A DNA stretch of 26,512 nucleotides from a virus. The translations under genes and the position numbers were made by a program. Below are positions 13,359 to 24,216 of this stretch, in pieces; the stretch's first letter is position 1; each line of letters opens with the position of its first letter. The DNA is taken from positions 1-26,512 of the IMG/VR virus record IMGVR_UViG_3300044675_004589; one strand, given 5' to 3'. Below the pieces are notes generated by a model. The model was given only the letters and a program-made list of their open reading frames with translations. It made no database searches and was not told the origin of the DNA.

Positions 13359-13529
13359 TTAGTTTAAATCATCCCAATTAATTGCTATGCCTTGATTAAG
13401 GTCATCGCATATCTTTTCTGCTTTACTGATTTTAAGGTGCTTTTTATCGAAGATTATTTCTTCTCGGTCATCTTGTACCCTAATTATAATAGGGTGTGGA
13501 GTTAGTCTAACTTTGTAGGTAGCTTTCAT
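13359..13529 (-). CDS. 56-residue hypothetical protein, first gene of the recombination operon
   Basis: MKATYKVRLTPHPIIIRVQD begins a product with a beta-rich first half and a helical acidic second half (ISKAEKICDDLN). It is the first gene behind the strong promoter at 13559-13588, with a leader containing CACTAAACCACTAAAAA. Function unknown. Confidence 0.62.
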   Translation of the reverse strand: MKATYKVRLTPHPIIIRVQDDREEIIFDKKHLKISKAEKICDDLNQGIAINWDDLN

Positions 13530-13558
13530 TTTTTAGTGGTTTAGTGCGTTTCAGGGTT

Positions 13559-13588
13559 CAAAGATAATAGTATTTAATTAAAATCAAA
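13559..13588 (-). promoter_or_regulatory. Promoter of the leftward recombination operon
   Basis: On the minus strand TTTG (13588-13585), an 18-nt spacer and TATCTTTG (13566-13559) match the Bacteroidota TTTG-N~19-TAnnTTTG promoter. It lies between the stop at 13584 and the gene starting at 13529, giving a leader of about 25 nt. It should drive the genes from 13529 down to the terminator at 8.2 kb. Confidence 0.78.
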
Positions 13589-14355: not shown

Positions 14356-14664
14356 TTATTTGTTTTCGTTATACCATTTAATAAATTCTACTACTTCTTT
14401 GTACGTTTCTTTAATGTTTGGAATGCTATCTGTAATATTATAATATAGTTCCATAGCATCTAATTCTAAAGATATATCTAATATTTTTACAACTACTGGC
14501 ATTATCCAGTTCCAATCTGTATGGTATGCTAAATCTTTAGTTTCATAAAGAGTGTCAAAAAATACTTCCCATTGCTCTATATCTTTATTATATGGCTCTC
14601 CAAAAAATAATTGTACTCCCATAAATTCTGCGATTAATTTGTTGTTTTCAATTAGTGTGTTCAT
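14356..14664 (-). CDS. Conserved hypothetical phage protein
   Basis: The 102-residue acidic protein has an IAEFMG opening helix, a conserved-looking YHTDWNWIMPVVVKI centre and a KEVVEFIKWYNE end. The pattern IAEFMG...YHTxWxWLMPVVxKI...VVEFIKWYN is one I recognise as recurring in Bacteroidota phages and plasmids with no known function. Confidence 0.75.
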   Translation of the reverse strand: MNTLIENNKLIAEFMGVQLFFGEPYNKDIEQWEVFFDTLYETKDLAYHTDWNWIMPVVVKILDISLELDAMELYYNITDSIPNIKETYKEVVEFIKWYNENK

Positions 14665-15453: not shown

Positions 15454-15466
15454 CTTGTTAGTGTGT

Positions 15467-15682
15467 TTAGTTTATACAAATTGCGTTAAATACTTCTTCT
15501 TCTTGAATTTCTAAATATCTATCATCTTCAATATTATTAATTGGCATTAAAACTGGAATGCAATTAACTTTTTGAAATTCATTACCTTCATCATCGTGTG
15601 CATAAATTACTTCATAATTCATGGCTTCAGGATGCAATGCTATTAATTCATTTAGTTCTTTTAAATATTCTTTTAGTTTCAT
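15467..15682 (-). CDS. Conserved hypothetical protein (LHPE..YEVIYAHDDEGN type)
   Basis: The 71-residue acidic protein has a helix EYLKELNELIALHPE followed by a strand YEVIYAHDDEGNEFQKV. This type recurs in many phages with no assigned role. The next gene downstream has the same layout, so the two may be diverged duplicates. Confidence 0.7.
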   Translation of the reverse strand: MKLKEYLKELNELIALHPEAMNYEVIYAHDDEGNEFQKVNCIPVLMPINNIEDDRYLEIQEEEVFNAICIN

Positions 15683-15910: not shown

Positions 15911-16270
15911 TTAACATTCTGCTTGAAAAGAACATTGTCCTGATTCTTTAATACAATCTCTTATTTGTATTCCTAATTTACGGTCGGCATATTCTGATAA
16001 TTCATCTTCTGTTATGTTTGCTTCTTTTAACTTTACATCATTATATCCATTGTTTTTTTCAAAAAAATCTTCAATTATTTTAATTTTATCTCCCAAAGAT
16101 TCTTCAATATTCTTTATTTCAGATTCAACATCTTCTAAATTATCTTCATCAAACCAATAATCTAAATATGCTGGTTCATTTCCCGTTACTCCAAATCTAT
16201 CTGCTGAATTACTTGATTGAATGCCAAACCAAAATTTGCCTTCAATATCTCCGTTATAATATCTTCCCAT
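15911..16270 (-). CDS. Conserved hypothetical acidic protein (GDIEGKFWFGIQSS)
   Basis: The 119-residue strongly acidic protein opens with GRYYNGDIEGKFWFGIQSSN, which looks like a beta structure with conserved aromatics, then a YLDYWFDEDNLEDVE stretch and helices. The leader carries CACACTAAAAACAAAA before the ATG, matching the putative small RNA's linker. Function unknown; an acidic anti-defence or DNA-mimic role is possible but unproven. Confidence 0.72.
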   Translation of the reverse strand: MGRYYNGDIEGKFWFGIQSSNSADRFGVTGNEPAYLDYWFDEDNLEDVESEIKNIEESLGDKIKIIEDFFEKNNGYNDVKLKEANITEDELSEYADRKLGIQIRDCIKESGQCSFQAEC

Positions 16271-16292
16271 TTTTTTTGTTTTTAGTGTGTTT

Positions 16293-16442
16293 TTAATTAA
16301 GTTCTATTAAATCTAAATCGTTTTTTATCCGTATTGCTTTGGCTCTTGCCAATTCATATGCTTTGGCTCTTGTCTTTGCTTTTACCTTTACCAGCCTTGC
16401 TGGTTCATGATAGTAATACGCTAAAAATTTATACTCTTGCAT
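16293..16442 (-). CDS. 49-residue basic protein
   Basis: MQEYKFLAYYYHEPARLVKV begins the product, and a helix with an internal repeat (KTRAKAYELARAKAIR) follows. The strand-strand-helix look and high charge suggest nucleic-acid or protein binding, but no family is recognised. Confidence 0.58.
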   Translation of the reverse strand: MQEYKFLAYYYHEPARLVKVKAKTRAKAYELARAKAIRIKNDLDLIELN

Positions 16443-16703: not shown

Positions 16704-16907
16704 TTAGTTTTTACAAATAAATTTTAAATATTCAAGGTCTTTTCTTTTGGGTGCATCTTCGTTCTTTGTGGCGTCTATTAACGGCATGTCATTGGTTACC
16801 TTTGCCCATTTTTTGCTCGTTGCTGGACTCGTATAAATTACCTTATAATGTCCATGTCCTGAAAATAAAAATTGAAAATCTGATTTTGTTGTGTTTTGTG
16901 TTTTCAT
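16704..16907 (-). CDS. Conserved small protein (SGHGHYKV type)
   Basis: The 67-residue protein has a beta-like FLFSGHGHYKVIYTSPATSKKWAKVT and a short end with basic PKRKDLEYLK. Short proteins with the S-G-x-G-H-x-x-V strand are frequent in Bacteroidota mobile elements; function unknown. The leader and first codons lie in a 21-bp exact repeat (16895-16915) shared with the gene start at 17579. Confidence 0.68.
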   Translation of the reverse strand: MKTQNTTKSDFQFLFSGHGHYKVIYTSPATSKKWAKVTNDMPLIDATKNEDAPKRKDLEYLKFICKN

Positions 16908-17904: not shown

Positions 17905-18270
17905 TTATAGGCTATTGAAGAAGTTATCTATATCCGTTTCTTTATCATAAAAATCTTCACTAACCTTTTGAGTGGCTAACAATGAGGCTAACAATTCGCT
18001 ATTAATATTTTCTAAAGTGAAGCCATTTTCTAAAGCTATTCCTATTGAATCCATTAGGCTTTTGTCATTTTCTGACAAATATTGAATTGCATTTGAATAG
18101 TAGATAATTTCCACGTTGAATCCTCCAGCGTCATCAATTTGCCCATAAATTGAGTCAAAAGCATTTGACAAATCAATTTCTTCAATATCTACGTAATCCA
18201 TAATTTCGAGGTTATCAATATTTAAGGATTTTAAAAATTCTTCGATTTGTGTTTTTAGTGTGGTTTCCAT
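17905..18270 (-). CDS. Hypothetical strongly acidic protein
   Basis: The 121-residue protein is rich in Asp/Glu with few basic residues (LEIMDYVDIEEIDLSNAFDSI, IDDAGGFNVEIIYY, SENDKSLMDSIGIALENGFTLENI). It may fold as an alpha/beta unit. The net negative charge fits anti-defence or DNA-mimic proteins, but nothing specific is recognised. Its codons 2-9 contain a CACACTAAAAACAC stretch resembling the leader motif. Confidence 0.7.
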   Translation of the reverse strand: METTLKTQIEEFLKSLNIDNLEIMDYVDIEEIDLSNAFDSIYGQIDDAGGFNVEIIYYSNAIQYLSENDKSLMDSIGIALENGFTLENINSELLASLLATQKVSEDFYDKETDIDNFFNSL

Positions 18271-19121: not shown

Positions 19122-19295
19122 CTATTTGATTAGTGTTAAATTAAATTCTTTAGCTATATAGTTAATATGTTTTTGGGTTGTTTGACTCCAGTACCCTAAC
19201 TGGTGCAAGGTGTTGCCCTGAATGGTAGCTACGTGCGTATTGTAGCTGTAAACGTTTGAACCGATTACCGATAAATTTTCTTTATACTTTTTCAT
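19122..19295 (-). CDS. Small hypothetical protein, first gene of the leftward early unit
   Basis: The ATG at 19295 gives 57 residues (MKKYKENLSVIGSNVYSYNT...) with a beta-like first half (VYSYNTHVATIQGN) and a helical end (KHINYIAKEFNLTLIK). The ATG at 19319 in the same frame is possible, but it lies 5 nt from the -7 box. The inner ATG has the CACACTAAACACAAACAA leader used elsewhere. Small early proteins at this position are often regulators, but no DNA-binding motif is clear. Confidence 0.65.
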   Translation of the reverse strand: MKKYKENLSVIGSNVYSYNTHVATIQGNTLHQLGYWSQTTQKHINYIAKEFNLTLIK

Positions 19296-19323
19296 TTGTT
19301 TGTGTTTAGTGTGTTTCAATATT

Positions 19324-19354
19324 CAAATGTAATTATATTATAATAGCTATTATA
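19324..19354 (-). promoter_or_regulatory. Leftward early promoter with a 16-bp palindrome as likely operator
   Basis: The minus strand reads TACATTTG at 19331-19324, a good -7 box. Immediately behind it lies the perfect palindrome TATAATAGCTATTATA (19339-19354), centred in the spacer where a repressor would block polymerase. A TTTG at -33 is not seen at the usual distance, so activation or a weak promoter is possible. Confidence 0.55.
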
Positions 19355-19651
19355 TTATTCTTTGTAACAAAGCTGATACATTACATAACTTGCTGATTAT
19401 CAATACAATAAAATTATAATAAAGGTATATTAATAGCATGTATATAATACTATCATGTACTATATGTATTTAATCAGGTATTGAATACATTGTACTAATC
19501 AAATAGACTGTATTAACAAATCAGGTATTCAATCAGGCTTTAAATAAAGCGTTTTAAAGGTAGTATATTGATTAGGTTTATACTTATACCGGTACATATA
19601 TTAAAAGTCTTTTAGAGGGTTTTATTTAAGGTCTTGCCTATTACTATTCTA

Positions 19652-19734
19652 TTTTGTGGGTGTTGCTGGTGCTGGTGTGTTTGGGTTGGTGTGGGTGTTG
19701 TTGTTTTGGTGGGTTGTGAGGTTTTGGGGTTGGT
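19652..19734 (+). repeat. G/T-only tract with G-quadruplex potential
   Basis: In these 83 nt only three bases (two C, one A) are not G or T. It holds several GGG/GGGG runs, and 19684-19694 reads GGTTGGTGTGG. The strand asymmetry is unlike anything else in the window. Confidence 0.7.
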
Positions 19735-19974
19735 ATTATCCCGTACCTTTTTCCCCCAAATTAGTACAAAAATATACCTTCCTTCCTTACCCTAACCAAT
19801 CCAAAAATACCCGAAGCCCTTAGCCTTTTCCGTTCCACTTGTACAAATGTTTGGAGGTGCTGACCAATGGCGAAGCGTGAAGCCTTGCAAGGTTTGGAGT
19901 ACCCCCATTGAGGGAAAACGTTTCTTTTTTGTGTTGTGTTGGTGTAGGTGTGGGGGGATAGTCCCTGACAAACA

Positions 19975-20020
19975 TATATGCAGTACCCCTAAAGCTACCC
20001 CGATAAAGCTATATGCAGTA
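19975..20020 (+). repeat. Direct repeat pair TATATGCAGTA
   Basis: TATATGCAGTA occurs at 19975-19985 and 20010-20020, 35 nt apart. AAAGCTA is also repeated between them (19991 and 20005). Possible protein-binding iterons. Confidence 0.5.
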
Positions 20021-20080
20021 TGTCTAAACCAGTCGTTGATAAACACACGCGTATCATCTATGAGGTGTGCCCCTTACAAG

Positions 20081-20123
20081 CCACCCCTTATAGCCCACCC
20101 CTATTGGTATATAGCCCACCCCT
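20081..20123 (+). repeat. Three CCACCCCT repeats, two within 14-bp direct repeats
   Basis: CCACCCCT is at 20081, 20095 and 20116; TATAGCCCACCCCT is exactly repeated at 20089-20102 and 20110-20123. The minus strand therefore has GGGG/GGG runs that could fold as a G-quadruplex. Confidence 0.6.
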
Positions 20124-20320
20124 GTTTGTATATTGGTATATTACGATAGGTATAGTGTATGTTCGCAGGGTATTTACGGTTGTAGATGAAAGAGTTAATT
20201 TATTAACTATTGAATTGATAGAAGGTTTATATTTATATACGGGTTTTTAATGATTTAAAATAGTGTTAAAAAGCTTGGTTTAAATGTGTGTGAGTGGTGT
20301 TTATATACTGTTTAGTAAAA

Positions 20321-20388
20321 TCAATCTATTGACAGTATGTAATCAAAAACATCAATATGTTGATAAAATAATGCTATCAATGTATTGA
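20321..20388. promoter_or_regulatory. Three TCAATnnATTGA palindromes, operators or iterons
   Basis: TCAATCTATTGA (20321-20332), TCAATATGTTGA (20352-20363, one arm mismatch) and TCAATGTATTGA (20377-20388) lie 31 and 25 bp apart. The last covers the -33 element of the promoter for the RepL-like gene. A dimeric repressor or a replication initiator could bind them. Confidence 0.7.
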
Positions 20389-20414
20389 CAATATGAATGT
20401 ATTTAGTATATTTG
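20385..20414 (+). promoter_or_regulatory. Promoter of the rightward replication unit
   Basis: TTG (20385-20387), a 19-nt spacer and TATATTTG (20407-20414) match the Bacteroidota promoter. It overlaps the third palindrome, implying repression or autoregulation. Transcription should begin near 20420, so the ATG at 20423 would be leaderless or nearly so. Confidence 0.75.
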
Positions 20415-23376: not shown

Positions 23377-23389
23377 CACACACTAATCA

Positions 23390-23857
23390 ATGCAAAAGAG
23401 AAACCTTGCAATCATCAATCTATCAGACCCCAATAGCCCTAAATTAGACTTCCTTTCAAAAAAATCTTTTACTGAAGACCTTAAAGACTTTAAAGATAAA
23501 GATAGAGTATGGATAGTTGTAGAAACTTACTATTCTAAGAGGAGCTTAAAGCAAAATAATCTCCTTCATCTGTATCTATCAGAGATAGCTAAAGAAACAG
23601 GCGCACAATTAGAGCAAATTAAAGACGCTCTAAAGAAGAAATTCCTTTCTGTGCCACTTACCACCAAAGATGGAGAGATAATGGCTGATAAGTCCTCTGG
23701 TGAAGTCTTAGAACGCGTAAGAGGAACATCAGAACTAACGGTAGTAGAGTTTATGGAGTTCACAGAGAATGTACGGTTGTGGGCAATGGAGTTTTTAGGA
23801 ATTTATTTAGCTTTGCCCGAAGAGCAGGTTGAATTAAGTTTTAAAAATCATAATTAA
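23390..23857 (+). CDS. ninB: NinB-like recombination protein
   Basis: The 155-residue protein has a beta start (KRNLAIINLSD), a KDRVWIVVETYYSKRSLKQNNLLHLYLSEIA stretch with the SxxQN-LxH element common to NinB/YP-type proteins, a basic KDALKKKFLS, and RGTSELTVVEFMEFTENVRLWAMEFLGIYLALPEE. NinB-type proteins bind single-stranded DNA and take part in phage recombination. The leader ACACACTAATCA before ATG resembles the leaders on the other strand. Confidence 0.75.
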   Translation: MQKRNLAIINLSDPNSPKLDFLSKKSFTEDLKDFKDKDRVWIVVETYYSKRSLKQNNLLHLYLSEIAKETGAQLEQIKDALKKKFLSVPLTTKDGEIMADKSSGEVLERVRGTSELTVVEFMEFTENVRLWAMEFLGIYLALPEEQVELSFKNHN

Positions 23858-23867
23858 TAATTATTTA

Positions 23868-23875
23868 TATATTTG
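23868..23875 (+). promoter_or_regulatory. Promoter -7 box TATATTTG before the putative small RNA
   Basis: TATATTTG is a full match to TAnnTTTG and lies 11 nt after the NinB-like stop. The -33 position is not a clear TTTG (TTTTAA is near). Transcription would begin close to 23881. Confidence 0.5.
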
Positions 23876-23880
23876 CATGT

Positions 23881-23988
23881 CTATTGAGGGTTCTCATTCC
23901 CTTGTTAGTGTGTTTTCATAGAGTAGCTTGGTAGTGCGAGCTTCTCAATTAACCCAGAGTTTTATCCAATTTCTCTGGGTTTTTTTTA
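23881..23988 (+). ncRNA. Putative small regulatory RNA with three hairpins
   Basis: No ORF fits this stretch, which is flanked by a promoter box and a terminator. Hairpin 1 is GAGGG (23886-23890) with CCCTT (23899-23903) and an 8-nt loop. Hairpin 2 is GAGTAGCT (23921-23928) with AGCTTCTC (23939-23946), one mismatch, 10-nt loop. Hairpin 3 is the terminator. The single-stranded linker 23904-23920 reads GTTAGTGTGTTTTCATA. CTTGTTAGTGTGTTT (23901-23915) is identical to plus-strand 15454-15468, i.e. complementary to the radC-like mRNA leader; shorter matches hit other leftward genes. Existence as a transcript is not shown. Confidence 0.5.
23951..23988 (+). terminator. Rho-independent terminator
   Basis: AACCCAGAG (23951-23959) pairs with CTCTGGGTT (23973-23981); the loop is 13 nt and eight T follow from 23980. 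It is a strong intrinsic terminator ending the upstream unit and the putative small RNA. Confidence 0.88.
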
Positions 23989-24024: not shown

Positions 24025-24032
24025 TACCTTTG
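24025..24032 (+). promoter_or_regulatory. Promoter -7 box TACCTTTG
   Basis: TACCTTTG matches TAnnTTTG and ends 4 nt before the ATG at 24037, directly after the terminator. The TTTG upstream is only 12 nt away, so the -33 element is weak. Transcription would start at or near the ATG. Confidence 0.55.
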
Positions 24033-24036
24033 ATTT

Positions 24037-24216
24037 ATGGAAACAACAAAAGAAAAACAGCCACCTATTCAGAATCTTGTAACGATTGATGAATACGCAA
24101 TCCTTGTAGATAAAACAAAAAGGACAATTTACAACTGGATTAACGAAAAAAGATTAACTACTTACGAAAAGTTTGGAGTTACACTATTAAATAGATTTGA
24201 TAGGCCAAAGGATTGA
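24037..24216 (+). CDS. Small helix-turn-helix protein (MerR/excisionase-like)
   Basis: METTKEKQPPIQNLVTIDEY begins this 59-residue protein, and an HTH AILVDKTKRTIYNWINEKRLTTYEKFG follows, of the type seen in excisionases and MerR-like proteins. The short length suggests a DNA-binding regulator only. It is the first gene after the terminator, with its own promoter, so it may control the helicase unit that follows. Confidence 0.68.
   Translation: METTKEKQPPIQNLVTIDEYAILVDKTKRTIYNWINEKRLTTYEKFGVTLLNRFDRPKD

Follow-up and report, generated by a model that had tools for sequence, protein, structure and literature searches.

A predicted phage small RNA with an invariant linker complementary to the initiation regions of ninB and several early genes

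Does the short stretch of DNA behind the phage gene ninB encode a regulatory RNA, and if so, with which mRNAs would it pair? An earlier sequence-only reading of the window (the whole 26.5-kb virus record analyzed here) had proposed a small RNA (sRNA) of which an unpaired linker between two hairpins is antisense to the leaders of early genes. The tail and lysis genes of the window point rightward and reach to 8.1 kb; from 19.3 down to 8.2 kb small genes form a leftward operon, and at 20.4 kb another operon sets out rightward, with ninB in it. About 1 kb between the divergent operons (19330-20390) has no clear genes; it contains short direct repeats (a 31-nt repeat in two copies, a 21-nt tandem repeat and G/T-rich repeats) and may be an origin of replication or a control region. 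Among isolated phages, those that encode a related DnaB-like protein come mostly from Flavobacterium, with some from Riemerella and Cellulophaga, and the host of the phage in the window is therefore very probably a Bacteroidota bacterium.

A search with the 20-mer CTTGTTAGTGTGTTTTCATA returned 10 public viral contigs, nine of which have the same RNA around the match; the tenth (L073) has no similarity to the sRNA in its flanks and was rejected as a chance match. Two further diverged copies were found in the DnaB relatives L004 and L005. A covariance model (R1) detected the sRNA in 12 of 72 sources, the window counted, all from one phage clade, and in no other DnaB relative; an additional match in L014 (23.6 bits) was judged from its sequence to be due to chance. 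No Rfam family (release 15) matched the sRNA, the best subthreshold scores lying far under the gathering threshold, and ARAGORN reported neither a tRNA nor a tmRNA in the region. Cellular genomes gave no match to a strict pattern of the sRNA, and the two matches to a relaxed pattern were taken as chance, their surroundings being without such a gene.

Just upstream of the RNA, the conserved box TATATTTG agrees with the sigma-A consensus of flavobacteria (TAnnTTTG, positions -12 to -5; PMC9723704), which places the predicted start of transcription near 23880; no clear -33 element was seen upstream of the box. The predicted gene is thus made up of a Bacteroidota-type -7 box, two hairpins and a terminator (Table 1). 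Sequence conservation and covariation across the 11 other contigs bear out the proposal of a small RNA gene, and on this comparison the segment is a discrete RNA gene with a predicted transcript. In every contig checked it comes directly after ninB, a position as for 3'-UTR-derived autoregulatory sRNAs; the conserved -7 box argues for a promoter of its own over release from the mRNA by an RNase, both being possible. Further downstream (24026-24037, plus strand), TACCTTTG stops a few bases short of the ATG of an HTH gene at 24037, so that the mRNA of this gene would be leaderless or nearly so.

Comparison between phages also brings out the fold. Two-sided changes that keep the pair occur in 7 of the 21 pairs of the whole structure, 97.3% of the cells are paired, and the observed covariation score was reached by none of 500 shuffles and by no slid structure. 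Because of the G-U pairs in the second hairpin (H2), the sRNA is assigned to the plus strand. The first hairpin (H1) was misaligned in the alignment (A4) and its variants were read by eye: L004 has GGC/GCC for GGG/CCC, and L005 has CCCC. As for the linker, described earlier as unpaired, covariation and the folds of relatives speak for the two-hairpin form, since H1, H2 and the terminator fold separately in five other distinct homologues (L004, L005, L006, L007 and L010). The minimum free energy (MFE) fold of the window's own copy, on the other hand, is a single long imperfect hairpin that buries part of the linker, and the linker-open form lies 4.7 kcal/mol above it. In addition, UUAG of the linker (TTAG in the DNA) can pair weakly with CUA (CTA) before H1. 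From the relatives' folds, the MFE fold of the window and this weak pairing, the linker appears to be mostly, not wholly, open. The minus strand of 23905-23919 reads ATG AAA ACA CAC TAA, a complete four-codon minigene; this is probably a coincidence of start-codon complementarity, since the G-U pairs put the RNA on the plus strand.

Table 1. Predicted sRNA, its parts and the complementary sites in the window
Feature	Coordinates	Strand	Details
-7 box of sigma-A type, TATATTTG (TAnnTTTG)	23868-23875	+	Putative promoter; invariant across six diverged contigs
Predicted small RNA, ~105 nt	23880-23985	+	Covariance model; 11 other IMG/VR contigs, E 1e-19 or better
Hairpin H1, GAGGG/CCCTT stem	23886-23903	+	Folds of homologues
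Linker TTAGTGTGTTTTCAT, 15 nt, invariant	23905-23919	+	Seed core TTAGTGTG at 23905-23912
Hairpin H2	23921-23946	+	Loop GTAGTG (23931-23936) invariant; 5 compensatory pairs, 98.4% of cells paired
Intrinsic terminator and T run	23951-23987	+	2 compensatory pairs, 100% of cells paired
ninB, Orf/NinB family recombination protein	23390-23857	+	PF05772, E 5.4e-8; directly upstream of the sRNA
Target element CACACTAA in ninB leader, just 5' of the ATG	23379-23386	+	In 9/9 contigs with a complete leader, window counted
15 nt complementary to 23901-23915, immediately 5' of the radC-like start (15453)	15454-15468	-	
12-nt complement in leader of gene 16270	16282-16293	-	Exact match
11-nt complement in leader of gene 19295	19306-19316	-	Just behind promoter box TACATTTG
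CGCACTAA in leader of gene 13529	13541-13548	-	One G-U; behind promoter box TATCTTTG
CACACTAA at first codons of gene 14664	14652-14659	-	
CACACTAA at codons 3-6 of gene 18270	18255-18262	-	

When the ninB leader, ninB and the sRNA were aligned across six diverged contigs, the linker proved to be the longest invariant run, outdoing the runs in coding sequence. Within the ninB leader, the island left unchanged in the same alignment is CACACTAA, the exact reverse complement of the linker core. This element is kept in L093 although the rest of its ninB leader is unrelated, and in L006 despite a neighboring 2-nt deletion. In turn, nine public contigs were found to have this subfamily of ninB, and in each of them the sRNA follows the gene. 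Among ORFs of at least 60 aa in the phages G002, G003, G004 and G006, CRCACTAA stands at the start of ninB only, and at ORF starts in general the motif was found in 8 of 192 cases in sRNA-bearing phages versus 12 of 3700 in loci lacking the sRNA (p=2e-6). The predicted ninB-sRNA duplexes are modest (-12.3 to -14.6 kcal/mol), with 4-11% of leaders and 0.2-2.5% of linkers doing as well as the real duplex after shuffling; the pairing is supported by conservation, not by these energies. No seed change accompanied by a matching leader change was found among the contigs compared. The L093 leader (phage G004) also has CACACTACTA, complementary to its own H2 loop region, which is suggestive of H2 as a possible second contact or seed in the G004 lineage alone.

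The other half of the linker, TTTTCAT, is invariant and has no supported target; it may serve a host target, a protein or folding. Pairing of a second seed half with ATGAAAACACA had been proposed at the first codons of the genes at 16907 and 17579. These TGTGTTTTCAT matches are exact, but they do not rise above background: ATGAAAACA was found at 5 of 192 ORF starts in sRNA-bearing phages and at 71 of 3700 in others (p=0.32). Since the frequencies are alike with and without the sRNA, the matches reflect a common gene start, not a target.

In the window, start regions were defined as -30 to +15 (61 regions, 5% of the window sequence). CRCACTAA occurs eight times: one copy is the sRNA's own complement and seven are at gene starts, namely those of ninB and of the leftward early genes 19295, 18270, 16270, 15453, 14664 and 13529. 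The complementarities reported earlier at radC (15/15), 16270 (12 nt), 19295 (11 nt) and 13529 (one G-U pair) are all present as described; the starts of ninB, 14664 and 18270 come in addition, and with ninB on the plus strand the statement that every match lies on the leftward strand falls. Six copies in the 61 start regions compare with 0.12 expected in dinucleotide shuffles (six reached in 0/2000) and with 0.81 under a conservative third-order Markov model of the same leaders (1/2000 reach six). Similarly, TTAGTGTGTTT, with sites at 15458, 16282 and 19306 and one at 13541 with a single mismatch (a G-U pair in the RNA), gave 10 matches with at most one mismatch versus 1.2 ± 1.1 expected, a number reached in 0/100 shuffles, so that the matches exceed chance in shuffled sequence.

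Linker duplexes of -12 kcal/mol or lower were predicted at 13 of 37 leftward starts, compared to 2.9 ± 2.1 for shuffled linkers (0/400), and the same energy test gave no enrichment in number at rightward starts. Complementarity tests with the whole sRNA, which take in its U-rich tail, were of modest significance: complements of at least 9 nt in 11 start regions versus 4.3 expected (40/1000 shuffles reach 11), and a longest complement of 15 nt (reached by 7/1000).

We looked for the leader motif in phages without the sRNA, and found the target element in none of the 80 leaders of gene 16270 homologues from 80 such contigs; the case that the earlier reading had named as refuting, the motif being kept where there is no such RNA, did not arise here. 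Relatives of gene 16270 sit in contigs without the 15-nt seed, searches with radC and gene 20393 found no relatives with the left operon, and none of the sRNA-bearing relatives has this operon; the early regulon is for this reason drawn from this one phage. The 119-aa protein encoded at 15911-16270 (minus strand) has no Pfam match and 390 IMG/VR relatives, with identity often at 55-74%, from contigs that vary greatly in size; its gene seems to be an accessory gene common to many phages. The leftward promoter regions 13529-13566 and 19295-19332 (minus strand) share a duplicated box-plus-leader, TTTGAA-NNN-TGAAACRCACTAAAC; at both, the predicted start of transcription is closely followed by the target element.

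Conservation, covariation, enrichment at starts and the absence of the element where the sRNA is missing speak for the proposed pairing of the linker in trans with early leaders. An invariant linker, a conserved complement before ninB and start enrichment are what an accessible seed of a trans-acting sRNA calls for, the accessibility here being partial. With somewhat better than even confidence, we favor a trans-acting phage sRNA that pairs where translation of ninB and of early mRNAs is initiated and probably represses it; comparison from phage to phage supports the pairing for ninB alone.

A smaller, local loop would have the sRNA control ninB only, with the early matches arising from A/C-rich left-operon leaders that share sequence and by chance hold CACACTAA. 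It would explain why ninB is the only target conserved between phages, and it agrees with the longer duplicated stretch TGAAACRCACTAAAC shared by the leaders of 13529 and 19295 and with a leader composition that by itself lifts the expectation to 0.8 sites. We consider it unlikely given six more sites, all at starts, of which those at 14664 and 18270 lie just inside coding sequence and do not stem from a copied leader, and given the 15-nt longest complement at radC.

A real sRNA could also have a host mRNA or a protein as its main partner, the 15-nt linker being kept for the host target and the pairing with phage leaders being secondary. Many phage sRNAs target host mRNAs (reviewed in PMC12197685), and 15 invariant nucleotides are more than the 8 needed for ninB; such a partner is nonetheless improbable as the main one, with CACACTAA kept in the ninB leaders of sRNA-bearing phages, the unrelated leader included, and enriched at the phage's own starts. 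We find it very improbable that CACACTAA/TTAGTGTG is a DNA operator of a phage repressor with incidental RNA complementarity: the sites at 13529 and 19295 do lie right behind promoter boxes, but for five of the seven start sites the 80 nt upstream hold no promoter box and several are inside operons, the copy in the sRNA gene belongs to the loop region of an RNA fold with covariation, and the invariant run is 15 nt rather than 8. Finally, a cis element that acts on the downstream gene as an attenuator or riboswitch (suggested by a terminator 5' of gene 24037) or a tiny coding gene (suggested by a 14-codon ORF at 23877-23921) is hardly credible, as the next gene is convergent, not co-directional, in G003 and G004, so that the sRNA is not the leader of a downstream gene, Rfam holds no matching riboswitch, and a 1-nt indel disrupts the ORF in L010, while L004 and L005 lack it.

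For the favored trans-acting sRNA, we infer the following course of transcription, pairing, repression and timing. The sRNA would be made behind ninB from its own Bacteroidota-type promoter and end at its terminator, and the mostly open linker, with the core UUAGUGUG, would pair with CACACUAA at or just before the start codons of ninB and several leftward early genes. Bacteroidota mRNAs are without Shine-Dalgarno (SD) sequences, and secondary structure and an A-rich start context tune their initiation (PMC6847099); given this reliance on unstructured A-rich leaders, a duplex in the start region should block 30S binding and thereby lower translation. At ninB, the duplex would lie 2-13 nt 5' of the AUG, within the expected 30S site, which, together with the precedent of GibS, a Bacteroidota sRNA able to repress by pairing at start codons (PMC7366714), points to translational repression; activation instead is possible. 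ninB would thereby be under feedback, and in this phage the leftward early genes would be turned down together once the rightward operon carrying the sRNA is on. With the adjacent ninB as the conserved target, the core circuit looks like neighbor-gene control, extended here to early genes.

Though outside any Rfam sequence family, the sRNA would work in a mode like that of known phage antisense RNAs. P22 sar and P1/P7 c4 (PMC12197685) are likewise phage RNAs that pair close to the start of an mRNA of their own phage and so block its translation; they differ in having one target (ant), a role in lysogeny control and enteric phages as their source, whereas here there are several putative targets and a recombination gene. 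More generally, sar, c4 and OOP each act on essentially one mRNA, while here one octamer seed has several candidate targets in its own phage. GibS of Bacteroides thetaiotaomicron is host-encoded, with its seed at the 5' end and metabolic targets, and no sequence in common with it was found (PMC7366714). The Vibrio cholerae 3'-UTR sRNAs OppZ and CarZ (PMC7398697) also lie behind an operon and inhibit translation of that operon's mRNA, forming a feedback; unlike the present RNA, which is preceded by a conserved promoter box of its own, they are processed by RNase E and host-encoded.

T4 RegA (PMC3014915) is a single phage factor that occludes the A-rich start regions of many early mRNAs; RegA is a protein, whereas here specificity would lie in RNA pairing. 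We tentatively put forward, at somewhat less than even confidence, that the sRNA is an RNA counterpart of RegA: an RNA-only regulator recognizing a shared octamer in many of the phage's own early mRNA starts, in a host phylum without SD sequences. Our literature search turned up no previous account of a Bacteroidota phage encoding a base-pairing RNA. If true, a single RNA with one octamer seed, several targets in its own phage and a conserved loop to the neighboring gene would be a compact case in which to test post-transcriptional timing in phages whose hosts lack SD sequences, and its natural pair of seed and target could be used to ask how initiation is blocked by antisense RNAs when there is no Shine-Dalgarno sequence.
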